A stretch of DNA of 64,000 nucleotides from Skeletonema tropicum (Eukaryota > Bacillariophyta > Thalassiosirophyceae > Thalassiosirales > Thalassiosiraceae). The notes beneath the pieces were generated by a model. The model had not been told where the DNA came from. It did not search any database and saw only the letters and a list, made by a program, of their open reading frames with translations. The position numbers were made by a program, and so were the translations under genes. The stretch covers positions 2,914,001-2,978,000 of the forward strand of contig CM074127.1 of assembly GCA_037178625.1 (NCBI GenBank). The letters are read 5' to 3'. Positions 25,901 through 63,064 of the stretch are shown one piece after another. Each line of letters begins with the position of its first letter. The stretch's first letter is position 1.

Positions 25901-27203
25901 GCTGCATCGCCTGATAATGAGGATTGGGCATGGATTGTTGATACATCATTGAAGGACTGCCGCCACTACTACCACTACTCCCTCCCCCTCCATAAACGGA
26001 TCCGCCATTCATGAAATCTCCCCCACCTCCTTGAACCGGTTGGCTGTGATAGCTTCGACTCACACTCGCTCCACCAAAGAACTGGCTGTTATTGTTACTG
26101 AAACCACCATTGGCACTAGCGGCAGCACTGATTCCTTCTCCGACACTGTTACTGTTGAAGCTACCCCCAGGCGCAGAATGGGCACTTCCCACCATAACAG
26201 CTGGCATGTTATTGCTCATCATGTGAGAACCGCTTGCCATACTAGCAGCACCTCCAACACTGCGCTGCATACTATGACTCCCAACAGGAGTCCCCTCTGT
26301 TTGCCATGTGGACTGCCCTGCACTATTGCCATCAACACCACTCATATTGTATTCACTTCCATTTCCTGCAGGAATACTTCCACCTCCATAAGAACGACGA
26401 GAGGAAGATGCAGCAGAAGAAGCGTTAGATGTTGTTGAATGAACAGCTGGATTCGAGGAACGGGGCATGATATGACCCATAGGCTCGCTGTATCCAGATG
26501 ATGATGATCCACCATGGGAATTAGGACCAATGCTAGGACCAATGCTTGCACCAACCCTGCTGCTGCGGCTGCTGATAGTACTTCCCCCGACACTAGCTTC
26601 ACCCCGGGCAAAAGGTCCGCCTGGTTCATTCCCAGTAGGACTGTTTTGATTGTATTGCCCGGGTAAGTAAGACGGCATGCCATCTTCTGATTCAGAATCG
26701 CGCTTTCCTCCCCGCAATGGAGGTGGTGGAGGACGGTTTTGTGATAATTCTCTCACAAGTGACATGAGTTTCAAAGTTGCACTACTGCTGCTTCGATCGT
26801 CATCATCATCAAAGGCATCGTTATTATAACGAGGTGCAGGCGGTGTACGAGAGCGACTCGCTCTCGAAGCACTGGCACTCCTCTCACTTCTTGTGGACGA
26901 TCCAGAGCGACTTCCAGATGATTTATAACTATCCCGACTATTTCTACCGCTGCGTAGTGAAGATGCGGAAGAAGAGTAAGAAGTATTATTTCGAGCCTGT
27001 GATGGAGGAGGCAAGGATCGATGGTCGTGATGGTCCTTTTGTTCCACTGCACGTGCGACGCGAGCAACTGATTTCGAAAAGGAAAAGATGGAATCATCGT
27101 CTACAGCTGCATCACGACGGGAACGGGAGGACCTGGATGACGATCTGGATTTGGCCTCATCCAAGAGACTTTGAAGATCAGCATTTTGCCCTGATCGTGA
27201 CAT
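22977..27203 (-). CDS. Chitin synthase A (cytochrome b5-like + GT2)
   Basis: A single-exon, 1,408-aa membrane enzyme that would polymerise UDP-N-acetylglucosamine into chitin and extrude it. The first 480 residues are Ser/Gly/Asn-rich. A membrane segment follows (VFFVGAFGFVPLLLC), then a cytochrome-b5-like domain with HPGG (about 598) and a second b5-related segment. After another membrane helix comes the GT2 core: VPCYNEGDNE, MVADG, AIDADTRVD (about 1010), LPGCFTMYR, GEDRML and QRRRW (about 1162), the full set of processive chitin synthase motifs. Several C-terminal membrane helices and an acidic Ser-rich tail complete it. The b5-plus-chitin-synthase arrangement also occurs in fungal enzymes. 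A second copy lies 10.5 kb away on the same strand, and two chitinase-type genes are nearby. Confidence 0.95.
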   Translation of the reverse strand: MSRSGQNADLQSLLDEAKSRSSSRSSRSRRDAAVDDDSIFSFSKSVARVARAVEQKDHHDHRSLPPPSQARNNTSYSSSASSLRSGRNSRDSYKSSGSRSGSSTRSERSASASRASRSRTPPAPRYNNDAFDDDDDRSSSSATLKLMSLVRELSQNRPPPPPLRGGKRDSESEDGMPSYLPGQYNQNSPTGNEPGGPFARGEASVGGSTISSRSSRVGASIGPSIGPNSHGGSSSSGYSEPMGHIMPRSSNPAVHSTTSNASSAASSSRRSYGGGSIPAGNGSEYNMSGVDGNSAGQSTWQTEGTPVGSHSMQRSVGGAASMASGSHMMSNNMPAVMVGSAHSAPGGSFNSNSVGEGISAAASANGGFSNNNSQFFGGASVSRSYHSQPVQGGGGDFMNGGSVYGGGGSSGSSGGSPSMMYQQSMPNPHYQAMQQYSRGGDSYSYAAGSRAQSMRSGSQMLIPKARFSWASESVGGNSTVLTRQSINSASVPEPSERKDNKATEGRLWASFAWIITFPLPNKCIMRPTKDAKQAWREKVALFLIMISCSVFFVGAFGFVPLLLCKEDTIFSMQDVWLQNGESWIAVHGTIYDVEDLIEKHPGGSKGIVDYLGKDASKVFPRAAPVTLPDKCLDVAKIEAYKLNEYTPTNNFTNPTCQSFTDLDILLGITCHTFAAGSNGTAKFLGDYTRGILSHTTIGLNSEGAQWFALYDRVYDVTNYIKKINENRDPKVDGEDESLDNNPAAYLTPTMNKVIMNSLGGDGTDLYENLFGTTEYVRCLEEMFYRGILDDSMDTFCATLNILMYTMLIFVATLMVIQFLASMIYICPRHRTYTEEDVMSPVMVMVPCYNEGDNELRKTIKSVLNTSYPDENKVLLMVADGVVTGNGEDMSTPEHLANILGFDIDEFEDDTFEYDCIGVVHVKNRARVYHGILQKGHKFLKYIVVVKCGLPEETTTSAKPGNRGKRDSQLIIMGYYNRIHYGRELTELDSAIQRAMVDLNLQADMVRFLMAIDADTRVDTMSITHMVYGMDKKEKVLALCGETKVDNKSMSWVTMIQVFEYYNSHHLKKAFEAAFGCVTCLPGCFTMYRIIADDGTPLLPGDGVLYEYSRNDIETLHEKNLYHLGEDRMLTTLLLKYFPDRSLTFIPEATCWTIVPHTFRILLSQRRRWINSTVHNMFELLKVNTMCGVCCVSMKVVVFIDLIATMILPASFCYAVYLLFLVFVEDLPVSKVLLILYGIIMGVQVVVFILRSRWEYIWWFSVYFIVGLPVFYLILPVYAFWNMDDFSWGKTRAVGGNVPNNAQEDDDESDRLVKEVDEGSTSSSSGTNSAGTYGEEDEGSYSDDNDSQGGSRNDNGSQEDRDYDNVTEDGDEGSEYSEEYSRSQAESQYFSQASRMEQSRRSRTSRTIL

Positions 27204-33545: not shown

Positions 33546-36500
33546 CTAAAAGTCCAATCTAGAATCTGAGTCACTGCTAGATCTTCGTGAGGAGCCGCGA
33601 TTACCACGAGATGCATGGCTCCTCCCATTTGAGCGGTACGACCTAGATCCCCGGCTTCCTCTAGATCCTCTAGAAGCATAAGACCTCTCACCACTTCCCG
33701 AACTGTGACCACTTCGATCAGAAGTACCACTGGTATAAGTGTTATCATCAACAAACTTCTCACGCTCGTCGTACTCATCATCATCATCATATCCTTCGGC
33801 TAGTTGAGCATTATTGACAGCACTGCCTCCGACAGCACGTGTCTTACCCCAAGAAAAGTCATCCATATTCCAGAACGAGTACACAGGAAGGATGAGGTAA
33901 AATACCGGTAGACCAACAATGAAGTAAATCGCGAACCACCAAATATAGTCCCATCTTGAGCGCAGAATAAATACAACCACTTGAACACCCATGATAATAC
34001 CGTAAATGATCAACAACACTGTTGACACAGGCAAGTCATCCACAAAAACGAGGAATAGCAAGTACATGGCGTAACAGTAACTCGCTGGCAGAATCATCGT
34101 TGCAATCAAATCAATGAACACCACTACTTTCATGGATACACAGCACACTCCGCACATCGTGTTGACCTTAAGGAGCTCAAACATATTGTGAACGGTTGAG
34201 TTAATCCAACGACGACGCTGGGAGAGCAAGATACGGAATGTGTGTGGTACAATGGTCCAACACGTGGCTTCGGGCACGAATGTCAATGTACGATCGGGGT
34301 AGTGCTTCAAAAGAAGCGTGGTAAGCATACGATCTTCTCCCAAATGATACAGGTTCTTCTCGTGAAGTGTCTCAACGTCGTTACGAGAGTATTCGTACAG
34401 CACTCCATCTCCCGGAAGCAAAGGAGTTCCATCGTCAGCAATAATCCGGTACATTGTGAAACATCCGGGCAAGCAAGTTACGCATCCAAAGGCGGCCTCG
34501 AAAGCCTTCTTCAAGTGGTGAGAGTTATAGTACTCAAACACCTGGATCATCGTCACCCAAGAGCTTGACTTGTTATCAACCTTAGTTTCGCCACACAGAG
34601 CTAGTACCTTCTCCTTCTTGTCCATTCCATAGACCATGTGCGTGATAGACATGGTATCAACGCGAGTATCGGCATCGATTGCCATGAGGAAGCGGACCAT
34701 GTCAGCTTGAAGATTCAGATCAACCATCGCACGCTGAATGGCGGAGTCAAGCTCAGTCAATTCACGACCGTAGTGAATACGATTGTAGTATCCCATGATG
34801 ATCAGCTGAGAATCACGCTTACCACGGTTACCAGGCTTGGCTGAGGTCGTGGCTTCCTCGGGAAGACCGCATTTAACAACAACAATGTACTTGAGGAACT
34901 TGTGCCCCTTTTGGAGGATTCCATGATAGACTCGGGCACGGTTCTTGACATGGACAACACCAATACAGTCATACTCAAAGGTGTCATCTTCAAACTCATC
35001 AATGTCAAACCCAAGAATGTTGGCAAGATGTTCGGGGGTTGACATGTCCTCTCCGTTACCAGTCACCAATCCATCTGCCACCATGAACAACACCTTGTTC
35101 TCGTCTGGGTATGTCGTGTTCAGCACCGACTTGATAGTTTTTCGCAGCTCATTGTCACCCTCATTATAACAAGGCACCATAATCATTACAGGACTCCTCA
35201 CGTCCTCTTCTGTGTAAGTTCGGTTGCGAGGGCAAATGTAAACCATGGATGCAAGGAACTGGATGATCATCAAGGCAGCTACCATACAAAGCATCGAAAG
35301 CATCAGAACGTTAAGTGAGGCGCAGAAAGAATCTGTGCTGTCGTCAAGGATCCCATGGTAGAACATCTCCTCTAAACATTGGATATACTCAGGCGAACCA
35401 AACAAAGCCTCGTAGAGATCAGTACCATCCCCGCCCAACGAGTTCATGATAACCTTATTCAATGTTGGAGTGAGGTATGCGGCCGGATTAACATCAAGGG
35501 AATCATCTTCACCATCCACTGTGGGTTCTCGATTCTCGTCAATCTTTTTGATGTAGCTTGTTACGTCATATACACGATTGTTGATGTGAAACCACCTAAG
35601 ACCATCTGAATTGAGACCGTTGGTGTACACACGGAACTGAGCACGCTCAAAGTCACCAAGGAATTTGTTCACGCCTTTCGACCCTGCCGCGAAAGTGTGG
35701 CAGGTGATGCCAAGCAGCTCATCAAGTTCTGTAAAGCTTTGGCAGGTGGGGTTGGTGAAGTTGTTGACAGGAGTTTCTTCGTTCAGCTTGTAAGCTACAA
35801 TCTTTTCCATATCCAAACACTTCTCAGGGAGTGTTACCGGAGCAGAACGGGGAAAGACCTTGGAGGCATCTTTACCCAAATAATCCACAATCCCCTTAAC
35901 TCCTCCAGGATGACGATCGATAAGATCCTTCACATCATATACATTCCCATGAACAACAACCCAGCTCTCACCCGTCTGAAGCCAAATATCCTTCATTGAG
36001 AAAATCGTATCTTCCTTACAAAGCAAGAGAGGCACGAAACCGAACACACCTACGAAAAACACGGAACAAAATACCATGATAAAGAATAACGCAACCTTCT
36101 CACGCCATGCTTGCTTGGCATCCTTCGTAGGCCTCATAATACACTTATTGGGGATGGGGAATGTAAGAAGCCAGGCAAAAGATGACCACAATCTGCCCTC
36201 TGTGGCGGAACCAGCAGATTTGGTTACCTCTGGCTCAGGCATACTTGCTGTTGCCAATGAGCGACGCGACATCACGGTTGACTGTGCACCGACAGACTCA
36301 CTCGCCCATGAATACTTGGCCTTTGGAACGAGCATTTGCGATCCAGCGATAGATCTAGCGCGAGATTCAAAAGTTCTTCCACCCAAATCGGAGACATCAT
36401 CACCTGCCCAGACCTGCCCATTGTTGTAGCGAGGTGGCGGAGGTGGAATGCTGCCCTGGTCGCCAATCACAGCTAGCTGCCGTGAAGATTGGTTGTACAT

Positions 36501-36623
36501 TTCATAGCCGACGGAAGACGGAGCATCGTAGGCGCCGCTAATGTATGTGCCGCTGACCATGGATGGATTGTGGCTGTTGCGAGACCGATCGTCGCTGTAG
36601 TAGTGATTTTGTTGCCGACTCAT
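33546..36623 (-). CDS. Chitin synthase B (cytochrome b5-like + GT2)
   Basis: A single-exon, 1,025-aa paralogue of chitin synthase A, on the same strand 10.5 kb away. It has a shorter polar N-terminus (about 130 residues), the membrane segment before the b5-like domain, HPGG (about 236), the second b5-related part, the GT2 core with VPCYNEGDNE, AIDADTRVD (about 647), LPGCFTMYR, GEDRML and QRRRW (about 801), C-terminal membrane helices and an Arg/Ser/Gly-rich tail. Across the catalytic core the DNA of A and B is almost identical at a constant offset of 10,506 bp, even at silent sites, while the ends and the b5 region differ. The product would polymerise chitin at the plasma membrane. It may have a different partner or location because its termini differ. 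Confidence 0.95.
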   Translation of the reverse strand: MSRQQNHYYSDDRSRNSHNPSMVSGTYISGAYDAPSSVGYEMYNQSSRQLAVIGDQGSIPPPPPRYNNGQVWAGDDVSDLGGRTFESRARSIAGSQMLVPKAKYSWASESVGAQSTVMSRRSLATASMPEPEVTKSAGSATEGRLWSSFAWLLTFPIPNKCIMRPTKDAKQAWREKVALFFIMVFCSVFFVGVFGFVPLLLCKEDTIFSMKDIWLQTGESWVVVHGNVYDVKDLIDRHPGGVKGIVDYLGKDASKVFPRSAPVTLPEKCLDMEKIVAYKLNEETPVNNFTNPTCQSFTELDELLGITCHTFAAGSKGVNKFLGDFERAQFRVYTNGLNSDGLRWFHINNRVYDVTSYIKKIDENREPTVDGEDDSLDVNPAAYLTPTLNKVIMNSLGGDGTDLYEALFGSPEYIQCLEEMFYHGILDDSTDSFCASLNVLMLSMLCMVAALMIIQFLASMVYICPRNRTYTEEDVRSPVMIMVPCYNEGDNELRKTIKSVLNTTYPDENKVLFMVADGLVTGNGEDMSTPEHLANILGFDIDEFEDDTFEYDCIGVVHVKNRARVYHGILQKGHKFLKYIVVVKCGLPEEATTSAKPGNRGKRDSQLIIMGYYNRIHYGRELTELDSAIQRAMVDLNLQADMVRFLMAIDADTRVDTMSITHMVYGMDKKEKVLALCGETKVDNKSSSWVTMIQVFEYYNSHHLKKAFEAAFGCVTCLPGCFTMYRIIADDGTPLLPGDGVLYEYSRNDVETLHEKNLYHLGEDRMLTTLLLKHYPDRTLTFVPEATCWTIVPHTFRILLSQRRRWINSTVHNMFELLKVNTMCGVCCVSMKVVVFIDLIATMILPASYCYAMYLLFLVFVDDLPVSTVLLIIYGIIMGVQVVVFILRSRWDYIWWFAIYFIVGLPVFYLILPVYSFWNMDDFSWGKTRAVGGSAVNNAQLAEGYDDDDEYDEREKFVDDNTYTSGTSDRSGHSSGSGERSYASRGSRGSRGSRSYRSNGRSHASRGNRGSSRRSSSDSDSRLDF

Positions 36624-39827: not shown

Positions 39828-41854
39828 ATGGCACCGGAATACAAAGAGCGAGAAGCAGACACCATCATGAACGACGCTGACAGTCCCATCATCACGTTCA
39901 ACTCGACATCACTTGACTTGGCCTGCAGAGGATGAATTGGAGGAAGTCGAAGTGCAGTGCGCTGGTCGGGCATACCTTGCCTATGAATCTCGTTTGCTAA
40001 GCTTGCGTGATTTTCTTCCATAGTTCCTCCTTTCATGCCAACAATGCTGCTGGTGCTGATTCTTCGGCTGCTAATTCTAGTGCTGCTGTAGAAGAGAAGA
40101 AAGAATATGATCTTTTGACCATGTCGGAGAAGAAGTTGGCCAAGCTCAACTACTATCAAGTTCTTCAGCGTCGTTTGCCCATGCATTCATCTACAGAGGA
40201 TATTCGTAAGGCGTACCATAAAGCCTGCTTGAAGTACCATCCTGATAAAACTGGACGTGGTGAAGAAGATGCAGTGTTTCTTCTTGTCAAGACTGCATTT
40301 GATACCTTGAGTGATCCCATTAAGAGACGATCTTACGATTCGACTTGCCACTTTGATGAATCCATCCCACCAGAGGGGGTAGAGGAGCAAGACTTTTATA
40401 CCACCTATGGACCGGTCTTTGAGCGCAACTTGAGGTTTGCTAGTTTTAATGATCCTATGCGTCATGTCAAGGTTGAGACAGCTTCTTCCGGCGGTGGCGG
40501 TGGTAAAAAGAAGAAGAACAACAAGAAGAATAAGAACCGATCCAACAACAACAATGGCAAAGACAACAAGAAACTCGACAAGTGCCCTCCATTCGGTGAT
40601 GATGATACCCCACTGGAACAGGTTCATTCCTTCTACGAGTTTTGGGTCCATTTCGAAAGTTGGCGAGACTTCTCCCTGAAGGCCGAGAAGGAGACTGACC
40701 ATGATCTTGAGGCTGCCGACTCCCGTGATGAGAAGCGTTGGATGAAGCAAGAAATCGATCGTAAGGTCAAAAAGATGAAGAAGGAAGAGATGGCTCGTAT
40801 CAACTTGTTGGTGGAAAGAGCCATGGCGGCTGATCCACGTCTTACGAGGGAGAAGAAGCGTGAAAAGTTGGAGAAGGAACGTCAAGCCGAGGCCAAGCGC
40901 AAGGCTGAAGAGGAGAAGGCAGAGGCGGAGAGGTTGGCGAAAGAACGACAGGAGGCTGAGGCAGCCAAGAAGAAGGCGGAGGAAGATGCCAAAAAGAAGA
41001 ATGCCAAGGTAAGTTTCCAGCTGTGTATTATCATCTCTTCAAATTGATAAAATGTGCTGAAACAAACTAACGAGTTTCTGCTACCTTACAACTCTACTCT
41101 CCAGCAACTGAAAGAACAACAGAAGAAGCAGTTGCGTAAGGCGAAGCAGCAATTCCGAAAATTGACCATGGCAGCTTATCAAGCGGCCTCACCAAACGAC
41201 AGTTCCGACAGTGACGGCGTTTGGGACGACATGGAAAAAATGAATGACGATGTGGAGCTCCTCTGCGACAAGCTCTCTGCTTTAGAGCTGGATTCCCTTT
41301 CAGAAGCACTTGGTGGCCCTGATGGCCTTGCTGAAGTTCGTCAGGTAGCAATCGAAACAGCTGCAGGTGCGGAACGTCAGTCTTTGTTGGCTATCGAGGC
41401 TAGGATTAAAGCTCGTAAGGAGTCTGCCGACAAACAAAAGGAGGCAAAGCTTGCTAAAACATCTGCTCCATGGACCAAAGACGAGCTCGCTGCCCTTTCA
41501 AAAGCGATCAAGAAGTATCCTGCAGGCGGTGCCGCTAGGTGGGATGCAATCGCAAGTTTCATCAACAACTTGTGCAAGCAGGAGGAGCCTAGAACGAAAG
41601 AAGAGTGCATTGAGAAGTACAACCAAATTGCTTCTGCGCCAGCTGCAAAAGAAACGAGTGCTGCAGCCGATGACAAGGCATGGTCTGAGAAGGAAGATAG
41701 TCTCCTCCAGGATATGCTTCGGAAATTTCCTGCGAGTATGGAAAAGAACGAACGTTGGAAGAGTATTGCGGAAGGGGTCCCCGGGAGAAGCAAGAAGGAG
41801 TGTGTTGAGCGCTTCAAAGCAATCCGCGAGGCAGTGAAGAAGGGGAAACACTAA
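39828..41854 (+). CDS. Zuotin/DNAJC2-type ribosome-associated J-protein, N-terminus in shifted frames
   Basis: The clear part runs from 40121 (in-frame ATG): a J domain (NYYQVLQRR, KYHPDKTG with the HPD motif), the zuotin homology region (FDESIPPEG, FYEFWVHFESWRDFS), a long charged helix, then after a 96-bp intron (41009-41104) two SANT domains (APWTKDELAALSKA and KAWSEKEDSLLQDM). This is the layout of DNAJC2, which works with Hsp70 at the ribosome exit and binds chromatin through SANT. Upstream coding sequence resembles the family N-terminus but lies in other frames: SPIITFNSTSLDLA (from 39885), EDELEEVEVQCAGRAYLAYE (from 39928), then SSSFHANN. Each step needs a +1 change near 39918-39933 and 40021. 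Either small indels are present or tiny introns are used. Start at 39828 is provisional. Confidence 0.8.
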
Positions 41855-41967: not shown

Positions 41968-44900
41968 TCAAAAGAGCATGATGGCCGCTCCACCTAACGC
42001 GGCAAAAAATAATGCCCAGAAGGATGATGGGGAAAACCCTGACGATTGCAGTCGTGCAACGTAATAATCAGTCAACCGTTCGTGGGGTTTGTTTTGTTTT
42101 GGTTCTGTCGACACCGATGGTTCTACCTTCAATTCCGTCGACAACGATAAAATATCACAGCACTTTGAGAAGTAGGCCGTTTTAGAATGCATGCAAGTGT
42201 CACTTCCTTCCTCTTCTCGCGCTGCTAACTCATTCAGCACGTCGACACAGAATGACGACGAAGAAGTATGTGTCTTTACAAATGCACCTGCGTTCACTTC
42301 GTAAGACGTGGTGCCCCTTTTACACAAATTGCAGGGCTTGTCTGGAGGTTTGTAACAGCAAGTACTGGCATATGCTGCCTGCATAGCATCACATTGCTCA
42401 CTACCTTTCTCAGTTACACTCAGAGTAAACATAGAGCTCATTTCATCACAAGAGAGAACCTGCCCATTGTGCTTTACAGTCGCATCAACATTGAGAGTTT
42501 CTTCGCCACTGCAAAGGGAGCACTTTTCGTAACAGCAGCCCTTGAATAGCAGAGATTTTGTCGCGTCACACATGTCGCTACCAATATTTTCATTCTTTGC
42601 CAGAATGGAATTGACATCAAGGCACGAAATAGAAGCACCTTTATATTCAACCATTGTCTCTGCCTTGAGTGCGTGGTGCAAGCTGCCTTGCTGACAAATG
42701 TTGCAAGGTTGTGGCGCGTCGTCACTGACTAGGGGAGAAGTGTCTTCTCCTACTTGGATTATGTCCACAGCTGGAGAAGTTGCGCAACATGTTCTTGGGA
42801 TAAGGGACTTAGCTAGAGAGCACGAAAAGCTATGCTCGTCTGTAAATTGCAGGAATGATTCAGAAATATCTCTACAGGTGGTATCAATTCCAGCATAGCG
42901 AACAAGCCTGTCTCCGAAGACGTGGTCTGAGTCACAAATGTTGCAAGGCGTGGTAGGGGCTTCGGCGCAGCATGCATTGCGGTGCTTGGATGTAATATCA
43001 GTGCATTGGTCACTTTCTTGTGGAACAAAATTTGCTGTCAGCATGTCATCAATAGTTGCACATGACACTGTGTCTCCATCATACTCCACGGTAGCTCCTG
43101 AAAACAGCTTGAATCCCTCACAGAGGCTACAAGAGTTCCTTTCTTCTCTTTCCAAAAGAGCTCTCTCACGAGTCCGCGACCTTGCAGGTGTAGATGGAGC
43201 CTTAAACATGTCAATTGACCATATCATAGTACCCCTAAGACACATCATCTCAGCGTAAGCCTCTTTGATTGCCCATGTTTCCTCGTTGTCAAATGATATC
43301 ATTTGGTTGGAGTCCACAACTGCAACCATAGAACTAGAACTAATGTCGTGGTGTAGCTCATCGTAGGAGTTAGAATCGATGTATTCAGAAATCTCCGAAA
43401 ATGGGAGGAAACCAGGAGTGTTACCACATCCTCCAAGACCAGGGGATCGGAAAGGACAGTTCAACTCTTTGCATCGACTATCTGCCAGTGTATAAGTGCG
43501 ACCAAATGCAGCCATACCGAGAACAAACTTGGTTGAGATAGTGTCCTTCAAAAGCTTGTATACTACTGCATCAATCATCTTGAGGTCTGAGTGTGACCCC
43601 ACAGTTTTTGGAATGTTCTTGGGTGTGTGGTAATCAAAAGTGTTCAGATTGAACCAATCGACATATCGAGATAAAGCAACTATGTCATAATCTAATTGCT
43701 CCCAATCAGTCCCAGGTAATGCAATGGTCAACAGATAATCTTTTCCTGACTCGTCAATTGCTAACCGTATTTCTTTTGCAACTTGCACAAAACGCTCGTA
43801 GTTGTCGGGGCTTCCGCCTTTATCGCGATCAAGTGGAGCTTCCCAGTCAAGATCAATTCCATCAAAGTTGTACATATCTAGAAATGCTACTGCACTTTGG
43901 GCGAAAGCAATTCTGGACGCCTCAGTTTCGGCAACCTCAGTAAATGACACAGGATTCATACCGCCTCCATAAAAGATTCCTTCAGTCACCGCAATGATAG
44001 TTTTAATGTTCGAGTTGCGTTCTTTCACCTTGTTAAACTCCTTGTACTTCTCGACTTCGTCCCAGGAACCGACCCATGGCTCGACGTGGCCAGCTGTAGA
44101 AATTGAAGCAAACGAATAAACAAGATGTGTATACGTTTGGTCGTCAATATCAGATGCTTCAAACCTGTTGCAAGTCTCAGGTCTATCTGAGCTCCAGCTG
44201 CGCCAGTAAGCTTGATTCACTGTCATGGCAAGCGGGTCATCACATGGCTTAAGCTCGATGACAACGGCCTCACTCATTTCAGACGGCTCCTCTTCGTTAG
44301 TAGTTTCAGCTGGTGTTGTATCAATCGCGGTTTGAGGAGTTTCCTTCACAGTCGGTGGAGGAGTTTCCTTGATTGTGGGACGTGGCGAAGGCTCAGGAGT
44401 GGGATCTGGAGTTGGTGGGGGAGTTTCTTTGACAGTTGGTGGAGGGGTTTTCTTGATTGTAGGTTGTGGCGAAGGCTCACGAGTAGGCTTGGGAGTTGGA
44501 TATGGTGTAGGGTTGAGAGTTGGTCTTGGAGTCGGCCTCTTTGTGGGATTTAGCGATGGTTTCCATGTTGGGTCCTCAGTAGGAGTAGCTGTGACGTGCC
44601 TGCACATGGTGTATGCGAAGCATGACTGTTGACCGTCGCATTCTTCAGCGCTTCCAGTAGGACAGGGCTTCGAGCAATTTGCATTTGCATCGTCATATGA
44701 AGTCCCACAGAAGAAGGACATTCGATCAGCGCAAGGTGTATTGCCAAAACATTTCAACCCGAGAGGGCAATCGGCTGGCCCATTTGGGCATGGAACACCG
44801 CACATCTGAGTTGCATGCTCGAAGCTGACACCACAGTAAAATGACTCCTTTGGAACGTCGAAAATGACTGGAACAACTGGTGACTTGGTAGGGTTGGCAG

Positions 44901-47900
44901 TACTGTTGTATGCAATGTAGTTGGTGAGTGAGCCAGCCAAATGAGTAAAAAAGAAAACACAGTAGAAATCAAAAAGAAAACTTACGGATATTTGGTGGGA
45001 TACTTTGTTGGCACCTTAGTCGGATATTTCGTCGGATTCTTTGTCGGCATCTTAGTTGGATATTTCGTAGGATTCTTTGTCGGCAAGCGCGTTGGATCAG
45101 GAGTTGGATCCAAAGTTGGTCTCAAGGTTGGCTTTCGTGAAGGCTGCTTTGTTGGACCTGGTGTAGGATTCTTGGTAGGATACTTTGTTGGGAATTGCGA
45201 CGGTTTCGGAGTTACTTTTGCTGTTGGGAATTGCGTCGGCTTTACAGTTGGCCTCGTTGTAGGTTGAGGCGTTACAGCAGGCTCAGAAAATGATGTCATA
45301 TCAGCTGTGCACGTCGTGTAAGCAAAGCAAGACTCTCCAGTGGGACACGAATCCGACCTCCCCGTAGGGCAAGGAACTGTACAAGATCCATTTGCATCTT
45401 CCAACGATGATCCACAAAAGAATGATTCAGGTTGCACACAAGGCGTGTAGGCATAGCAATTTTCTGCTCCAGGACATTCATTGCTATCTCTACTGGGACA
45501 TGGTTTTGTGCACTTTTCCGACGCTTCCATGTAGCTTAGACCACAATAATAAGACTCGATGGGAACAGGAGAGAAATCGACCGCATCTATAGGCTCATTC
45601 GGCTGACATGGAGTATTCGCGAAGCATGTCTGTCCAAGCGGGCAGACTGACGAAGTCTTCAAGGGACATGGGATGGCACATTGGGTAGATGCATCTTCAA
45701 ATGATACTCCGCAATAGTAAGACTCGGAGGGATAATCAATCGCTGGTTTCGGAGAAGGCTTCCTTGTTGGTACTGTTGCTGATGCGATTGGTTCTGAAAA
45801 TGCAGTAATGTCACCAGCACAGGGAGTGTACGCATAACAACTCCCACCGTCAGGACATACGCCATCTTCACAAGGCACAGCACAGGAACTCGCGTCATTG
45901 AATGAGGAACCACAGAAAAAGGTTTCCGGGTGCAACATAGAACAGGTAGTGTGAGCAAAGCATGCTTCACCTAGAGGACATTCCGCCCCCGACCCTGATG
46001 GACATGGCGTGATGCATTTGCCTGTATCATCGAATGATTTGCCACAGTAATACGAATCGTCAGGTGTCGGAACCGATGAAAACTGCGGGATCCCGTCTGC
46101 ACAAGGTGTATATTTGTGGCATGTCTCGCTCCCAGGGCACTCCTCATCAAGACCACTTGGGCAAGGATCCGTACATGTCGAAGAAGCTTCATCAAAACTC
46201 AAACCGCAATAGAATGTATCTTCTCTCATACATGGGGTGTAACCATAACATTTCTGACCAATCGGGCAATCAATACTCGATCCGCTTTCGCAAGGTAACG
46301 CGCACGTAGACGATGCTTCCTCCCACGTAGCACCACAGAAAAAGGAACCCTTATCACTGCATGGAGTACTTGCAAAGCAAAGCAACCCATTGGGACATTC
46401 ACTAGAGAGGCCAGATGGGCATGGGTGCGCACACGACGAAGATGCCTCATCAAAAGATGTGCCACAGAAATATGAATCTGGTGGCGAAGATTGAACTTCA
46501 TCGTCACAAAGAGTGTACGCAAAACACCCCTGACCGTCTGGGCATTGATCACTTCTGCCCAAATTGCAAGGGATTGAACAAGAATCCCTAGCATCTTCAA
46601 AGGAAATCCCACAGAAGAATGAGCCCGTTTCATCTGGTATCACCGTAGGTATATCATTCGTTGACGAAGGCACATTATTCGGGTCTGAAGTAGATGAACA
46701 TGTCGTGTGCGTGAAACAAGACTGACCAAATGGACACTCACTGCTGCTTCCAGATGGACATGGATTCAAGCAAGAAGCAGCATCTTCAAAGCTAGTTCCA
46801 CACATGAACGAGCCATTGTCGTTACATGTAGTGTAAGGAAAGCAGAAGGTGCTATCAGGACATTCACTATCCAAACCACTTTTGCATGGAAAGAGACAGT
46901 TGGATGCAGCATGGTTCCATGTAGTACCGCAGAAGTAGGTGTCTGAATCATCACACGGAGTATTGGCATAACAAGAATACTCAGGACCAAGTTCAGCGCA
47001 TTCGGTGCTTGATCCGCTCGGGCAGGCAAGTGCACACGATTTTGAAGCATCCGTGTAATTTTTTCCACAGTAGAAAGTTCCCACATCCACAACGTTCTTG
47101 TCGGGATCGTCGACCGGATCGGCACAGGACGTCTCAGCAAAGCAAAATTCATTCTCCGGGCAAGACGCGTCTAAACCATCCGGACAAGCTTGTGCACAAG
47201 TATTATTAGCATCAGCAAAACTTTGCCCACAGAAAAATGATTCGCGGCACTCTGTAGTCGCATAGCATTCATGGCCAAGTGGACATTCATCACCATTTGG
47301 ACATGGGAGTAAGCAATTCACACTCTCGATATCTGTTCCACAGTAAAGGAACGTTGAAACTTGGGGAGCGCTTGTTGCAGACATTTGTTGCATGGAAGCA
47401 GTTGGTACAGACGTCGGTAGTTTTGTCGGAAGTTTCGTTGGCAGTCTCGTTGGATTCCTTGTATCAGACGACGGAGAACCGCCATTTGTCCCGCATGGAG
47501 TATTTGGAAAGCAAGCAAAGCCTTCAGGACACTCAGAAGAAGATCCCGTGGGACAAGGCTTGACACAGTTCGTTGATGCATCATAGAAATCAACCCCACA
47601 GTAGTATGAGTTGGTATCAGAGCAAGGAGTGTACCCGAAACATTTGGAGCCATCAGGACAATCACCGTCTAGACCGCTGGGGCATGGCATCTTACACTCA
47701 CTTGCAGCATCATACCACGTTGTTCCGCAAAAGAAAGAATCGCCTCCACTACAGGGGGTGTTTCCGTAACACGCCTCACCAACTGGACATTCTGCCCCCG
47801 ACCCTGATGGACACGGAAGATGACATCTATCAGACGCATCAATAAAGTCCACACCGCAGTAGAAAGAGTCCTCAGGAATGTCAGCTAAGTTTGGCTCCTC

Positions 47901-50900
47901 TTTTGATGGCGGCGAGATATCATTACATGGTGTATATTTGTGGCATGTCTCGCTCCCAGGGCACTCCTCATCAAGACCACTTGGGCAAGGATCCGTACAT
48001 GTCGAAGAAGCTTCATCAAAACTCAAACCGCAATAGAACGAATCAGACTTGGAGCAGGGAGTGTAACCATAACATTTCTCACCAGCCGGACAGTCAGTAC
48101 TCAAACCACTTTCGCAAGGTAACGCGCACGTAGACGATGCTTCCTCCCACGTAGCACCACAGAAAAAGGAACCCTTATCACTGCATGGAGTACTTGCAAA
48201 GCAAAGCAACCCATTGGGACATTCATTAGAGAGGCCAGATGGGCATGGATGCGCACACGACGAAGATGCCTCATCAAAAGATGTGCCACAGAAATATGAA
48301 TCTGGTGGTACAATGGGAATTGGAGCTAGCGTTGGGGTAGGCACAGCATTTGATCCATCCTCGTTACAAAGAGTGTACGCAAAGCATCCTTCACCATTGG
48401 GGCAGGTACTACTCTGTCCTGTTGGACAGGGGACGCCACATGTTGACGTAGCCTCGTCAAAAGACAATCCACAGAAGAATGATTCAGTTTCATCACATGG
48501 TGTGGAAGGGAAACAAGACTGACCTGTGGGGCAGTCTGACGAAGACCCACTAGGGCAAGGAAGGAGACAGCTTGTTGCGGCATCTGTCCAGCTTGTTCCG
48601 CAGTACATGGCATCACGTTCACCGCAAGGAGTGTACGGATGACACATTTCCCCATCGGGACACTCTGAATGCTTGCTAGACGGACATGGTTGAGAGCAAG
48701 TGAGAGAAGCCTCTTCAAAAGTTGCGCCGCAATAAAATGAGTCGACGGGGATATCAACATCGGGTTGACCGCAAGGAGTGTACCCAAAGCATACGTCGCC
48801 GTTTTCACATTCGTCGTTGCTACCTGAAGGACAAGGCTTTGAGCAAGTAGATGCAGCTTCATCCCACGTTGTACCGCAAAAGAAAGTGTCACGATCTTCA
48901 CATGCAGTATATCCGTAACAACTTTGGCCTGTGGGGCACTCATCTGATGTACCACCTGGACAGGGAACCAAACAGTTTGACGTAGCATCTTCAAAGCTGC
49001 TTCCACAATACAATGAACCGGGAGAAGATGAAGACGGTTCGATATTTGAAGAAATAGGAGTTGGCTCATTGTTTGGTGCACTGGGAGTTGGTTCATTGTC
49101 AGGCAAATCAACACAAGATGTGAAAGAATAGCAGGACATGCCGTCCGGACAATCATTTGTTCCTCCAGGACACGGAAGATTGCAGGTTCCTTCCGCATCT
49201 GCTTTGTCCAAACCACAGTAGAACGTGGTTGTTATTATGTTGTCGGATGTTGGTGTTGGTGCTGTCTCATTTTCGTTACAGGAGGTGAAGGGAATACACG
49301 ATTCACCGGTAGGACATTCGTTCGAGTTACCATTCGGACATGGGACAAGGCACTTCTCATTCGCATCGGCATAATTCGTTCCACAGTAGAAAGAGTCGCG
49401 CTCGCCAGTCGGTGACAGCGACGGTGATGGCCCACCAACACATGTTGTATATTCGTAGCACGCAAGGCCAGTCGGACAATCCACAGAGCCATTGGGACAT
49501 TCAAATTCACACGAATTTGATGCATCGTCAAAGGAAGTTCCACAATAGAAAGAGTCCGTTGGCACGTAACTTTTAGGCGTCGGAGCGTCTGTAGGTGCTT
49601 TCGTATTGAAATCTCCAGTTCCGCAAGTCGTATACGAAAAACAACTGAGACCATTGGGACACTCAGATGCTTCTCCAGAAGGACAAGGAAGTTGACAGTC
49701 AGATGCTTCATCGAAGCTGGTACCACAGAAGTACGATCCGTCGTTATTACACGGCGTATACGCAAAACATCTCATTCCGTCTGGGCAGTCAGAATGCTCA
49801 CCACTTGGACAGGGGTTGGAGCACGTTGAAGATGCCGATTCCCAAGTATATCCGCACATGAACGAGTCGCGATCAGCACATGAGGTTCGAGGGAAACAGC
49901 TCATTCCTGATGGACAGGTATCACTTTTGCCTGACGGACATGGAAGGGAGCAATCACTCGTCGCCTCATCGAAGGTGTATCCACAAAAATAGGAGTCAGT
50001 GGGCCCCGAAGGTTCCGGCTCTTCAACCATATCTTCTATCAAACAAGTCGTGTGAGCAAAACATGTTAAACCATCAGGACAATCACTAGAGAGACCTGAT
50101 GGGCACGGCGCTTCACAATTACCACTTGCTTCGATGTAATTATTTCCACAGTAAAATGTATCTTTGTCGGCACATGTGGTGAATGCAAAGCAGCTCAACC
50201 CTGTTGGGCAATCATCACTTGTCCCCGTTGGGCAAGGATAGTCACATACCGCAGAAGCCTCGTCTAAGTTTGCCCCGCAATAATAAGTGTCTCTATTGGG
50301 ACAAGGCGTGCTCCCGTAACATTGTTCGCCGTCAGGACACTCTGAATCCAATCTTGTTGGGCATGGGTGAGTACATTGTGAAGAAGCCTCTAGGTAGGAA
50401 GTTCCACAGAAGAATGAATCGCCAGGAATATATGGTTCAACTGGTGCTGCCGTAGGTTCATCTATAATGCTATCGGATGACTTGCATGTCGTGTGAGTAA
50501 AGCACGACTCTCCTGATGGACATTCGGTGGGACTACCTGATGGGCAAGGCTCATCGCAGTTTGAGGAAGCATCATCAAAGGACGTCCCGCACATAAAAGA
50601 ATCAGTTTCATCGCATGTTGTGTAAGCATAGCATTGCGTCCCAAAAGGGCATTCAGAGTCTGTCCCAGAAGGACAAGGGTATCGACAACTTGACGCGGCA
50701 TTATTCCATGAAATTCCACAGTAGAAAGTATTTTTCTCCTCACAAGGAGTATGAGAATAACAGCTCATGCCTTCCGGACATCCGTCACTCAACCCGCTCT
50801 CGCACGGCTGCGTACATTGAGTAGCAGCGTGCTCGTACGAATACCCACAATATTTTGTACCGTCATTAACAGCTGGCTCAACGGGTGCACGAGTTGGGGA

Positions 50901-52852
50901 CTGAGTCAGACTCCACATCTTACAGGTTTGAGTCTCATAACAAGAAAGACCAGAAGGACACTCTGAATCCAAACCACTGGAGCAAGGATTTTCACAAGAC
51001 GCACTGGCATCAACAATGCTTACTCCGCAGAAGAATCCATCTTTATCCGAACACGGAGTGTTGGCATAGCAGGCTTGGCCAACAGGACAATCTGTTGACA
51101 GACCAGATGGACACTCATTTAGACACTGTTGCGAGGCCTCCTGGAAAGACGATCCACAATAAAAAGTCCCAGACGGATCATAACTTGGCGATCTCGTCGG
51201 TGATGGACTAGCTTCCTCCAAACAACCCGTAGAAGCGTAACATGTCAAGTTATCTGGACATTCCGTTGGGCTTCCTGAAGGGCATGAAAACTCACAGGCT
51301 GAAGAAGCTTCCATCAATGTGTTCCCACAGAAGAAATCATTTGTTGTAGGTTTCTCTGTTGGCTGCGGTGTTGAGTTTTGCGTAGGATTCGGCGTCACGG
51401 CTGCATCTACCTGCACTATACACTGAGAAACTGCATAACAAAACCCGGTAGCACAATCAGAAATCCCTCCTGGACAAGGATTTCTGCAGCTACTTGCGTC
51501 TTCGATAGAAGATCCACAATAAAAACCTCCACTAGTAGGGCGTTTTGTTGGATTTGGTGTAGCTACTGCAGTCTGTTGCTGAATTGGCGGAGGAGTCGGA
51601 TGCCTTGATGGATCCCTCGTCGGCTCTCGCGTTGGCTCTTTGGTCGGCTCACGCGTCGGATTTCTCGTTGGAATCCTCGTAGGCAGCCTTGTTGGCAATC
51701 GTGTTGGCCCTCTGCTTGGGTCTCTCGTTGGCTCTCTCGTCGGTTCTTTTGTTGGCTCTCTTGTCGGCTCACGTGTAGGCAATCGCGTTGGCAGTCTCGT
51801 CGGAAGTTTAGATGGACGGCGAGACGGATCTCTCGTGGGCTGATACATAAAAAAAACACGAGAGTAAAGGTCAGCTTATTGTTGAACAAGGTTACTACAA
51901 GCATTTTCTATTCAATTACATTTTGATTGCAACTTACCTCACGAGTAGGATCACGCGTTGGCTCGCGAGTTGGTAACTTTGTTGGGAAGCGTGATGGATT
52001 ACGAGTCGGACCACGTGAAGGGTCCCTTGTTGGCTGAAAGTGGAATTGATTGATTGAGATGAACAAAAGAGTGTTAGATTGTATCTTTGGAAACAATTCA
52101 AAATTGCATTGATTCTCGATTTTTTAGGACAGAAGAGTCTACTGCCATCGCAGTCAATCACGAAGACCTGCAACCACCCAAATCTCATTTCTTTTCACAA
52201 ACTAATTATGTGATAAGCAAAATCTTACCTCTCTAGTAGGAAATCTCGAAGGATTCCTTGTTGGCAGCTTGGTCGGATGTCTCGTTGGTAACTTCGTCGG
52301 ATGCCTAGTCTCCCCAAAATTTGTGGGTTCCAATGTCACAGGCAATTGCGTTGGATATTTAGTTGGAAGAGCCGTTGGTTTTTCAGTATTACCCCCAGAA
52401 TTTAGTTGAATTGGTTTCCTCGTCGGGGGGAATGTGGTCGTTCCATCCTCATCTTGCTCCTTCGGATCTTTATAATGCAAGAATTCTGTATCATCCCCTG
52501 CATATACACGTGGATTGAATGGGGTAGAAGAATACAATGTCATGAATTGATTGGCCTCTGCCCATGGCCCCTCCGCATCATCCACTTGGAGTTCTCCGCC
52601 CATCATTGGTATGATACTAAAAAGGTTGCGGCTGACGCTGCTGCCGCTAACTTTATCATCACTGTTGCTTCTTTGTTTAAGTTCTCTATCATTGTCAATG
52701 CCCTCATCCGTATTTGTGTGGAGTGCGAATACATGTTCCAGCACATTGTCTTTGTTTTGTTGTTGCAGTTTGCTTGACGATTTACCAGTCAGGTACACGA
52801 TGGCACAGGCTGTCAGGCTGAACGCCAGGACGACCTTTCTATTGAATTGCAT
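41968..52852 (-). CDS. Giant modular GH18 chitinase with 43 six-Cys modules
   Basis: Four exons (52852-52229, 52033-51938, 51839-44986, 44902-41968) join with correct phase across introns of 195, 98 and 83 bp. Donors are gtaaga, gtaagt and gtaagt; all acceptors are cag. The result is about 3,502 residues. In order: a signal anchor (VVLAFSLTACAIVYLTG), an acidic linker, Pro/Thr/Arg-rich PTRxP repeats, 41 six-cysteine modules of about 45 residues (pattern [FY][FY]CGxSxxxAxxxC...PCPSG...ECPxGxxCxxxTxC), a PT linker, two more such modules (43 in all), another PT linker, a GH18 domain with the complete catalytic motif DGIDLDWE (about residue 2870), five CxxC...CC modules, and a hydrophobic end (FWALFFAALGGAAIMLF) like a GPI or membrane anchor. 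GH18 enzymes cut beta-1,4 GlcNAc chains with retention. The modules are probably carbohydrate-binding (inference). A wall-anchored chitin scaffold and remodelling enzyme is the likely role. Confidence 0.85.
46107..46486. repeat. Duplicated module block, copy 1
   Basis: This part of the giant chitinase gene matches 47931-48310 at an offset of 1,824 bp (608 codons). Tracts of roughly 110 and 180 nt are almost identical, separated by about 70 nt that differ clearly. The pattern suggests gene conversion or a recent exchange between module arrays. Confidence 0.85.
47931..48310. repeat. Duplicated module block, copy 2
   Basis: Partner of the block at 46107-46486 within the same exon, covering three six-cysteine modules. 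Confidence 0.85.
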
Positions 52853-60690: not shown

Positions 60691-61621
60691 TTTATTTCAA
60701 TGCAATTATCCACTACAACTGTATTCCTTCTACTTCTATCTATCGGTCCGTTAGCACAGCCAGCGTATGATGCAACAAGCTGAGTAGAGTAAAACCGTCC
60801 ATGCGTGAGCGAGCGGTGGGGCGGACGGTCGGTGATGCATGCTACAGGGGTCAAAAAAGGTGTCTAATGTCTAACACCTCTTCGCTACGTACACAAAATT
60901 GTAGGAATTGGTACACACCCAAAAAATGCTTCCCGCATTTTGTGGAGGAGAGAGAATAAGCCTGCAAAGTTTTTCTACGTACACGTACTACGATTCCTAC
61001 AGTAGCTACTCCTACCAAATTCGGGCGGGAAGATGACTTTTTCACTGTCACATCAGAAAATGCTAGCTGTTCGCTCAATATCGTTAGACACTTTTTCTGT
61101 AATTCACGTTTTTTGACCCCTGTAGCATGCACCTTGCAGCTTGCTGCGAACTTCCGCTTTCCCGCCACAATCTATCTAGCTAGCTAGTAGCTAGGGCGGC
61201 ACAAAAAAGGAGTTATCGCTCTGTATGTATGTGGCTGTCTCATCATCAGCTGCTGTCTCCCAGTGCAACCAATGACAAAGAAGCCACCACTATCCACACC
61301 CAAGTAGGAAGGCAATAGCTGCAACAGTATAATATTCTCTACGAGCAATCAGCGGTGGTGCGATTGACTCTTTTGACGCTGCGCGGTCGTGATCCAACAA
61401 AGTAGGGTTTATCTCATTTTCAATCTTTGCATATTCATAAAAGGTGCATATACTTCCTCAGGTTGAACCTCCATCTGGTCAGCTGGTATTATCTCAATCC
61501 CTGAACACCACGAAGTGCATTAACATTGGTGCAGGTTGGAAGTGTTGGCATACAGGTAAAATTTAGACGCATAGACTCGAGAGATAATAGAAACTTAATA
61601 GAAACAGCAATACGCAGCATC
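60691..61621. other. Intergenic containing a MITE-like element
   Basis: Lies between divergent genes (PP5 on minus, acidic protein on plus). The inverted-repeat element at 60836-61131 occupies its first half; the second half includes a ctag-rich patch near 61168-61190. No gene or RNA was recognised. Confidence 0.6.
60836..61131. mobile_element. 296-bp MITE-like inverted-repeat element
   Basis: The ends are perfect 23-bp inverted repeats: the left (60836-60858) starts tgcatgctacaggggtca and the right (61109-61131) is its reverse complement. The interior is non-coding and holds partly matching inverted stretches (gtgtctaa.. / ..ttagacac). Size, lack of coding capacity and terminal inverted repeats fit a miniature inverted-repeat transposable element in the PP5 promoter. 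No clear target-site duplication flanks it, so it could also be an old insertion or a long hairpin. Confidence 0.6.
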
Positions 61622-63064
61622 ATGAGTGAAGCACTTGGTGGCATCGACATAGGGCGGGTCATGTCCTCAGATGGACCAATCGTGAAATGTGTCCTCCTAC
61701 GCACTCAGGCTAGTAGCACAAGTAGTGAGGCCAACGTCAAAGAAATGTCTATCCGTGAAATGAAGCAAGAATTAGAATCATTTGGTGTAGACACATCTCA
61801 GTTTGTTGAGAAACCAGACTTGCAAGATGCTTTGACTGAGGCGCGGATGAATAGTAAAAAGCCAGCGGGCAGCAATGATGATGATGGCAAGGATGGCGGC
61901 AGCAATGACGATTACACCTTTCGTGGTGAGCCTGTTCCACTGCTGAGGTACATGGAAGAGATTGAAGTAGATACCACACCAAAGAAATCGATGGTAGCAC
62001 AAGTTCTGGGTGGTGATTTCACTTTCCTAGGCCAATATGAAGATGAGGGCATCATGGTTATGGTACGTCGACCAGATTGGGAGGATGAGGATAGCTCGTT
62101 TGATGAGAGCGACATTCCTCCGGTGAATCCACACCCATTGCAGCCTCCATTTGATGAAGTTGAAGTGCGTGGGGACATTCTTTTGATCAGAGTTGCCGAG
62201 ACAGCAGAGGAATTGGATGATGATAATGATGATTATAAGAATGATGATAAGAATGATAATGAAATTGATAAGGAAGAAGAGGAGGAAGAAGAGAAAGCAA
62301 GTAATGAACAGGGTGAAGAAGCTTCCGACATGAAACCTGCAGCTGTTGAATCAGAGGAAGGCAATGAGGAAAAGGTAGTTTCTGTTCCAGCCAATGACGA
62401 CTTTTTCCTGGACTACAGCATGGAGGAGTACCTCAAATTTGCAAGTCGCACTGACGTCGAAGGGCCACCTATCCTTGAAGAATCTGATGAATCAGCTGAA
62501 GAGGAGAACGAAGAGGAAGCAGGTGAATCCAAGGCTGATGGAGACGAAGATGAAGATTATGACCCTGAGGTAGACGAACTCAGTGATGAGGAATTCGACG
62601 ATGAAGAACATCAGGTAGGAATGATGAATCTCATTTTAGGGCAGATATTGCGAAAGTTTCATGAAGAGAATGGTCGTGGGCCGGACACATTAGAGCTTCT
62701 GGAAATGCGCAAAGCGCTTGCCGATCGGTTAGGAGTAGAAGTTCCGCCAGTGGATGAAGAAGCTTGCGACTGGGATAAAAAGGCTCCAACTCCAAAGAAA
62801 GGAGAAACGCCGAAGAAAGTCGTTGTAGCAGAGGAGAGGAATGAATGCGAGACTATTCCTCGAGAGACGAACAACTTGTTTGGGAGTGAAAACGATGAAG
62901 AGGCAGCTGAGGAACAGGACGAATCCTCGGGATTGAAACGACCTGTCGAGATGATTTACGGTGAACAAGGTGAAAAAGATGATGGCATTCAGCATCAGAG
63001 CAAGAAAGCAAACTTAGAAGTATGTGAAGAGAGTGGTAAGGAAGGTGCGGAGGTTGCAGCATAA
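61622..63064 (+). CDS. Acidic conserved protein with SAP-like motif, function unknown
   Basis: A 480-aa protein from the first in-frame ATG at 61622; the frame is open upstream to 61526 but without an ATG. A short segment (MSIREMKQELESFGV..DLQDALTEAR) looks like a SAP-type helix-turn-helix motif. It is followed by a conserved-looking domain (LLRYMEEIEVD, LGGDFTFLGQYEDEGIMVM, PPFDEVEVRGDILLIRV) and long Glu/Asp-rich stretches. A basic Lys/Pro patch (KKAPTPKKGETPKK) lies near the end. The central domain resembles an uncharacterised family found in algae, but I cannot name it with certainty. The acidic character suggests a nuclear or chaperone-like role (speculative). It converges with the GTP cyclohydrolase homologue. 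Confidence 0.7.
   Translation: MSEALGGIDIGRVMSSDGPIVKCVLLRTQASSTSSEANVKEMSIREMKQELESFGVDTSQFVEKPDLQDALTEARMNSKKPAGSNDDDGKDGGSNDDYTFRGEPVPLLRYMEEIEVDTTPKKSMVAQVLGGDFTFLGQYEDEGIMVMVRRPDWEDEDSSFDESDIPPVNPHPLQPPFDEVEVRGDILLIRVAETAEELDDDNDDYKNDDKNDNEIDKEEEEEEEKASNEQGEEASDMKPAAVESEEGNEEKVVSVPANDDFFLDYSMEEYLKFASRTDVEGPPILEESDESAEEENEEEAGESKADGDEDEDYDPEVDELSDEEFDDEEHQVGMMNLILGQILRKFHEENGRGPDTLELLEMRKALADRLGVEVPPVDEEACDWDKKAPTPKKGETPKKVVVAEERNECETIPRETNNLFGSENDEEAAEEQDESSGLKRPVEMIYGEQGEKDDGIQHQSKKANLEVCEESGKEGAEVAA

Follow-up and report, generated by a model that had tools for sequence, protein, structure and literature searches.

A 64,000-nucleotide stretch of the Skeletonema tropicum genome (contig CM074127.1, positions 2,914,001 to 2,978,000), referred to here as the window and used for all coordinates that follow unless another contig is named, carries on its minus strand, at 41968-52852, a predicted four-exon gene for a protein of 3,502 amino acids. 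This protein combines 43 six-cysteine modules with a GH18 domain and five further modules of a CxxC/CC type. It is likely, at roughly even confidence, to be a secreted, membrane-anchored chitin tether resembling the chi-lectins, rather than a digestive chitinase. The tether is favoured over digestion, to which a lower probability is given, because the order of the module array has been kept, the active site has decayed across the clade to which the GH18 domain belongs, and chitin synthase genes are linked to the gene. The grades of confidence attached to the explanations discussed below overlap, and are not meant to total one.

A single gene, predicted to be spliced

The four predicted exons (52852-52229, 52033-51938, 51839-44986 and 44902-41968) are in phase and join to 10,509 nt, a length divisible by three in which the only stop codon is terminal. 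The three predicted introns are of the GT-AG type, and each begins with GTAAG and ends with CAG: intron 1 (52034-52228, 195 nt, phase 0), intron 2 (51840-51937, 98 nt, phase 0) and intron 3 (44903-44985, 83 nt, phase 2). Exon 1 encodes a hydrophobic N-terminus (a signal peptide or an anchor) and the beginning of a Pro/Thr-rich stalk, and exon 2 contributes 32 codons of Pro/Thr/Arg repeat, similar to a sequence that is unbroken in P0065, a relative from Skeletonema marinoi. Exon 3 contains the stalk, six-cysteine modules 1-41 and a second Pro/Thr linker. Exon 4 completes the protein with modules 42 and 43, a Pro/Thr/Glu linker, the GH18 domain, the five CxxC/CC modules, a hydrophobic tail and the stop codon. 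A preliminary description, made from the sequence of this DNA, had proposed one giant spliced gene from two long frames (44982-51848 and 41968-44940), two upstream exons, and a gtaagt donor with a cag acceptor 83 bp on that would restore the in-phase sequence YPTANPTKSP. All of these elements were reproduced: both frames lie on the minus strand, the donor of intron 3 is directly 5' of the stop codon of the longer frame, the junction reads KYPTANPTKSP, and the upstream exons join in phase.

The two long frames are each open on their own, and could instead represent two or three genes, with 41968-44940 encoding a chitinase and 44982-51848 a separate cysteine-rich protein. Most of the relatives listed are shorter than the joined product, which is the usual outcome where gene callers overlook introns or where contigs are cut short. 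Against this division, nine relatives, chosen because their sequences extend sufficiently far upstream (P0065, P0067, P0066, P0030, P0010, P0012, P0013, P0018 and P0032), keep the Pro/Thr repeat unbroken across the third junction into the P-I-I/V-PV...SFYCG sequence of module 42. Among these, P0065 is a long protein deposited as 'chitinase', with the same N-terminus and stalk as the window protein, and P0030 bears the source label 'merc', presumably that of a metatranscript catalogue. Three other selected relatives (P0002, P0005 and P0006) have unlike starts and diverge just upstream of the acceptor, with similarity beginning at STA(N/S/T)PTK(S/A)P, the predicted acceptor itself. In P0002 the surplus residues, WLTHSPSSLH, look like the window intron translated in a different frame (WLAHSPTTLH), as would be expected of non-coding DNA. 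Since relatives carry the same unbroken sequence across the junctions, which is more than chance would provide, the four exons almost certainly form one gene on the strength of this sequence continuity. The division into separate genes is very improbable and was rejected on that ground. The single gene of the preliminary description is backed by P0065 and by the eight further relatives that cross the doubtful junction.

The six-cysteine module array

The predicted protein has a mass of 375.4 kDa, a pI of 4.35 and 295 cysteines. A recount of the six-cysteine modules gave 43, the number first reported; all contain C-G and six cysteines, and most preserve P-C-P-x-G...C-P. Modules 1-41 (45309-51518) are arranged in runs of one to three, with a period within runs of mostly 43 residues, and modules 42 and 43 are found at 44602-44835. 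A tryptophan at module position 5 is present in eight of the 43 modules, each time in the second module of a run (a place that occurs 14 times), which indicates that duplication involved units of more than one module. A recent three-module duplication is visible between 46101-46484 and 47925-48308, which are 95% identical over 254 nt and 98% identical over 120 nt.

Despite this recent block copy, module comparisons indicate that much of the array is old, because 29 of the 31 reciprocal best module pairs between the window protein and P0066, a relative with 50 modules, are colinear, compared with a mean of 8.6 and at most 13 over 2,000 shuffles. Identity between modules in the same place is 70.7%, measured over 28 index pairs chosen after the colinearity had been seen. 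The closer S. marinoi protein P0065 (NCBI, 3,072 amino acids) is 84.8% identical in the array region and 94.4% identical in the GH18 domain, with 26 of 27 reciprocal best modules colinear. Its deposited model differs in showing 30 recognisable modules together with odd stretches, and is for this reason probably partly wrong.

Conservation of array order and length is also what would be expected if the array performed the work of a structural wall protein, such as a linker between cells or between cell and silica, whose GH18 domain had lost its relevance to chitin. Six-cysteine arrays without a GH18 domain in the stretch examined are found in the genome (L001, L004 and L005) and among the relatives (P0068, P0071 and P0073), and a three-module query matched 72 genome places, 19 of them inside the giant gene and others in such GH18-less long frames. 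This explanation is considered improbable. Tryptophan and aspartate residues of the GH18 cleft are invariant in the clade (vide infra), chitin synthases are neighbours of the gene, and the GH18 domains of the window protein and P0066 are closer than their arrays (71.5% versus 61.6% identity).

Neither kind of array module has a name or a solved fold in the libraries searched. The six-cysteine module matched ten Pfam families at E values up to 5, each in at most four of 14 members, and none was a chitin-binding family (CBM14, CBM18 or CBM19). The best of these, Dumpy_DPY (0.025, one of 14 members) and Lustrin_cystein (0.089, three of 14), were rejected as identifications with a known binding module, and three cobra three-finger toxin entries among PDB sequences (0.0078-0.042) were taken to reflect chance cysteine spacing. 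A three-module structural model, built from a 14-row alignment, consists of strand-helix-strand units at a modest mean pLDDT of 74.8, and a Foldseek search with this model gave no match. The five CxxC...C...C...CC modules (42157-43131), whose count agrees with the preliminary one, had no match among solved sequences at E values up to 5 and a single Pfam match (0.042) in one of the five members. Modules of this second type were also observed at C23:1242003-1242932, outside the listed GH18 loci.

The GH18 domain and its active site

The domain search of the joined protein that had been suggested as a check recovered the GH18 domain at 43201-44220 (residues 2753-3092), with a match to Pfam PF00704 (E 9e-55, 187 bits against a cut-off of 29.6) covering positions 4-316 of 317. 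An NCBIfam search gave a partial ChiD match alone, at 47.4 bits against a cut-off of 750. Motif names follow general GH18 knowledge and PMC3662789. The DGIDLDWE sequence seen in the preliminary description is present at 43863-43840, and represents an intact DxxDxDxE motif with the catalytic glutamate. At 43978-43992, AVTEG stands in place of the canonical AVGGW, and the SxGG motif is gone from its aligned place; at 43627-43644, NTFDYH stands in place of the canonical M(A/S)YD, with phenylalanine at the position of the catalytic tyrosine. A chi-lectin with phenylalanine at this position is described in PMC3662789, as is narbonin, which is inactive with its glutamate retained.

The GH18 alignment and tree contain 58 rows, 52 from the clade of the window protein (which is included) and six canonical rows with AVGGW, DWE and M(A/S)YD, namely the four most similar GH18 loci of the genome (on C8, C1, C3 and C6) and the relatives P0080 and P0081. 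Relatives P0049-P0064, 16 of 64 hits, were omitted as fragments or remote sequences; P0065, P0066, P0067, P0080, P0081 and the four genome loci were added, and the acid column was excluded from tree building. The clade is split from the canonical rows by a branch with 99% SH-aLRT support. SxGG is gone from the aligned place in all 47 clade rows that cover the site, and the catalytic tyrosine is phenylalanine in 51 of 52 rows, with tyrosine kept in P0037 only. The acid position contains glutamate in 26 rows, aspartate in 21, lysine in four and asparagine in one, which corresponds to at least seven changes on the quick tree, the asparagine row not being counted. The four lysine rows (P0038, P0039, P0040 and P0066) are otherwise well conserved. 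Other residues are invariant over all 58 rows: the aspartate of DxDWE (58/58), the aspartate of MxYD (58/58) and the barrel tryptophan (57 of the 57 rows with a letter at that site).

The genome contains 37 GH18 matches, which were grouped as 21 loci, four of them read for all three motifs; a motif scan of selected loci found glutamate at the acid position in eight. At the C6 locus (L008, C6:2705500-2714000), a 921-amino-acid frame includes a second GH18 stretch with DGVDVDYQ, glutamine at the acid position and five adjoining six-cysteine modules, and so the 52-row clade is not the sole GH18 group with a changed acid.

These comparisons bear directly on the possibility that the protein is a working wall-remodelling chitinase, in which the glutamate of DGIDLDWE would cut and the 43 modules would hold the enzyme on insoluble chitin. 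This is a credible possibility that is judged somewhat short of probable. Both the glutamate and the whole DxxDxDxE motif have been preserved in the window row and in the 10 remaining subclade rows, the Pfam match spans nearly the entire family model, and the best solved relatives by sequence, OfChtIV and chitotriosidase, are active enzymes. On the other side, SxGG and the catalytic tyrosine are replaced, and the acid is lost in half of the clade. GH18 identity to the window protein is 97% in P0001, 94.4% in P0065 and 71.5% in P0066, and the acid-lost relatives P0066, P0010, P0018 and P0030 remain 71-79% identical to it. The word 'chitinase' in the preliminary description is less secure than the single gene: DGIDLDWE is intact, but the cutting that the word implies is doubtful in light of the other two motifs and the acid-less half of the clade.

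With chi-lectins such as Ym1/Ym2, YKL-40 and TCLL the window protein probably shares the GH18 fold, judging from the structural model, and TCLL is described as also having phenylalanine at the tyrosine position. The chi-lectins differ in being small and array-less, and several lack the acid that the window protein has kept. Because the glutamate is retained in the window protein and its subclade, the protein is not filed as a chi-lectin, and is only likened to one in its working. A Foldseek search with the GH18 model gave Ym2 at E 1.5e-17, with an rmsd of 7.9 and low model confidence in much of residues 207-289; Ym2 and Ym1 made up the top three fold matches, with active mammalian and insect chitinases close behind. 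Because the second half of the model is of low quality, no claim is made about the geometry of the cleft.

Protein termini

The two ends of the protein are its most hydrophobic 17-residue stretches, in agreement with the hydrophobic tail first proposed. The C-terminal tail (41971-42039) is compatible with a glycosylphosphatidylinositol (GPI) anchor signal, and a hydrophobic C-terminal stretch is present in the window protein and in 50 of 51 clade relatives, the exception being P0066. The GPI transamidase component Gaa1 was found in the genome (4.7e-18). The giant protein may be held at its C-terminus by a membrane or GPI anchor.

Chitin synthases and gene neighbourhood

Two genes with a chitin synthase domain (PF03142) and a cytochrome b5 domain are found in the window on the same strand as the giant gene, at 33546-36623 (5.3 kb away) and 22977-27203 (14.8 kb away). 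Seven PF03142 matches in the genome were counted as six chitin synthase genes, these two included. Two of the 21 GH18 loci are within 24 kb of a synthase: the giant gene, 6.7 kb from the nearer synthase domain, and a second GH18 giant on C8, at 24.0 kb. Random placement would put two or more GH18 loci so near with a probability of 0.003 (0.0096 at 50 kb), with a cut-off chosen once the data were known. The synthases and the giant gene are separated by an eRF1 gene and a zuotin-like gene, so that they are linked but not directly adjacent. A synthase of Thalassiosira pseudonana expressed in Phaeodactylum localises to the Golgi, the plasma membrane and the cleavage furrow (PMC10134812). Interpolation of ID numbers suggests, as a lead and no more, that the T. 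pseudonana synthases J4368, J4413 and J7305 named in that paper may be on chr_4 and chr_7, the chromosomes that carry TpChi6 and TpChi14.

The zuotin-like gene (40007-41854, plus strand) ends 113 bases from the stop codon of the giant gene, with convergent 3' ends; a J-domain was recognised by eye and Myb domains by Pfam, and a RAC head match fell below the cut-off. The second giant (C8:2604104-2612684) is of the CC-array type with a canonical site, and is separated from its synthase (C8:2634933-2638250) by an interval that includes an RVT_2 reverse transcriptase frame (L026). A search of viral contigs for syntenic relatives found none. Elsewhere in the window, a plus-strand frame (61526-63061) contains DUF5880, with a SAP match below the cut-off. 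Several pairs of places in the genome have the same or nearly the same scores (C3:491-503/958-968 kb, C6:2707-2710/3094-3097 kb, C7:3355/3748, C8:2097/2367 and C17:66/724 kb). Both members of each pair lie in one contig, and one pair is inverted; either large segments have been duplicated or haplotypes were left uncollapsed. Open frames are shorter in the second C3 copy, which also contains some stops.

A possible mechanism

For the chitin tether, the following mechanism may be envisaged. The N-terminus would direct the chain into the secretory pathway, and the C-terminal tail would be either swapped for a GPI anchor or retained as a membrane anchor. Anchoring would place the CxxC/CC modules and the GH18 cleft by the plasma membrane, where chitin might exit from the synthases, and the cleft could then hold a chitin chain through its conserved tryptophan and aspartates, with cutting slow or nil. 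The Pro/Thr stalks and the disulphide-rich 43-module array would project outward and attach to wall polymer at numerous sites, and this multi-point binding could organise or fix new chitin in the wall.

Several points weigh against such a tether. The catalytic glutamate is kept in every row of the subclade to which the window protein belongs, its own row included (11/11), as in a working enzyme, and phenylalanine in place of tyrosine may only slow catalysis. A GGG sequence follows five residues past AVTEG in the subclade of the window protein, and SxGG is for this reason possibly displaced there and not lost. The tree is a quick one in which 20 of 55 inner branches are weak. Array identity between the window protein and P0066 (61.6%) is below that of the GH18 domain, and chitin binding by the six-cysteine or CxxC/CC modules is a proposal, neither of them resembling a known binding module in sequence. 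The linkage to synthases could be accidental; chitin synthases and chitinases are described as jointly building fibres (PMC3478156), so that the linkage would also be compatible with an active enzyme. Finally, P0066, one of the two longest relatives, ends without a hydrophobic tail, which weakens the anchoring step, and confidence in the tether was for this reason lowered from slightly better than even to even.

Comparison with known proteins

The preliminary description knew of no described chitinase with so many modules, and left novelty to be checked. The novelty of a giant chitinase is not supported, given that giants are published from related diatoms, that P0065 is deposited and that P0066 has 50 modules. 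Thalassiosira pseudonana TpChi6 (3,512 amino acids, 373.1 kDa, pI 4.09) and TpChi18 (3,325 amino acids) share one common GH18 motif set, and the word 'cysteine' is absent from the main text of that paper (Cheng et al. 2021, PMC7874618). Thalassiosira weissflogii TwChi38 (3,610 amino acids) is said to lack the motifs used in its paper (Cheng et al. 2025, PMC12028343). These three are chitinase-family giants of similar size, a comparison that is based on their published descriptions and not on sequences; the searches for relatives gave no match named TpChi6, TpChi18 or TwChi38. Because diatom chitinases of 3,325-3,610 amino acids are published, giant size is not new. The points likely to be new are that array order is conserved, that the active site has decayed across the clade, and that the gene is linked to synthases.

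Closer in composition are the CC-array giants (P0080, P0081 and P0090-P0092, with genome loci on C8 and C3), which likewise combine GH18 with six-cysteine and CxxC/CC modules. In contrast to the window protein, the five relatives have 14-18 CxxC/CC modules, as counted with one regular expression, and only one to five six-cysteine modules, and they preserve the canonical AVGGW and DWE. The T. pseudonana girdle-band wall protein p150 has a chitin-binding domain, whereas GH18 is not mentioned in the relevant passage of PMC3478156; this comparison is by description and not by modules.

Literature searches, which covered few subscription journals and were not made by module sequence, found nothing on a six-cysteine array or on active-site loss in diatom GH18 proteins, no paper on Y214F, none combining chitinase-like, chitin-binding and frustule, and no locations of T. 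pseudonana chitin synthases. A search for a silica-associated proteome with chitinase gave one paper, the passages of which deal with salinity and not with these modules. Six chitinase-domain genes are down-regulated in silicon shifts (PMC5501833), and chitin genes of Skeletonema subsalsum are down-regulated by salt (PMC11554505).

Significance

Diatom chitin is an important marine source of carbon and nitrogen (PMC7874618), and 'chitinase' genes are read as signs of chitin turnover. If the clade that includes the largest of these 'chitinases' binds chitin and does not cut it, that practice would be misleading. More tentatively, and with a probability well short of even, these proteins might represent a class of giant chi-lectins, previously unrecognised, in diatoms of this lineage, in which a decayed GH18 cleft and a conserved disulphide array of 40-50 modules, encoded beside chitin synthases, hand nascent chitin from the synthase into the wall. 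Should the tether reading be correct, the synthase-linked giants would be direct candidates for fixing chitin in the silica wall.

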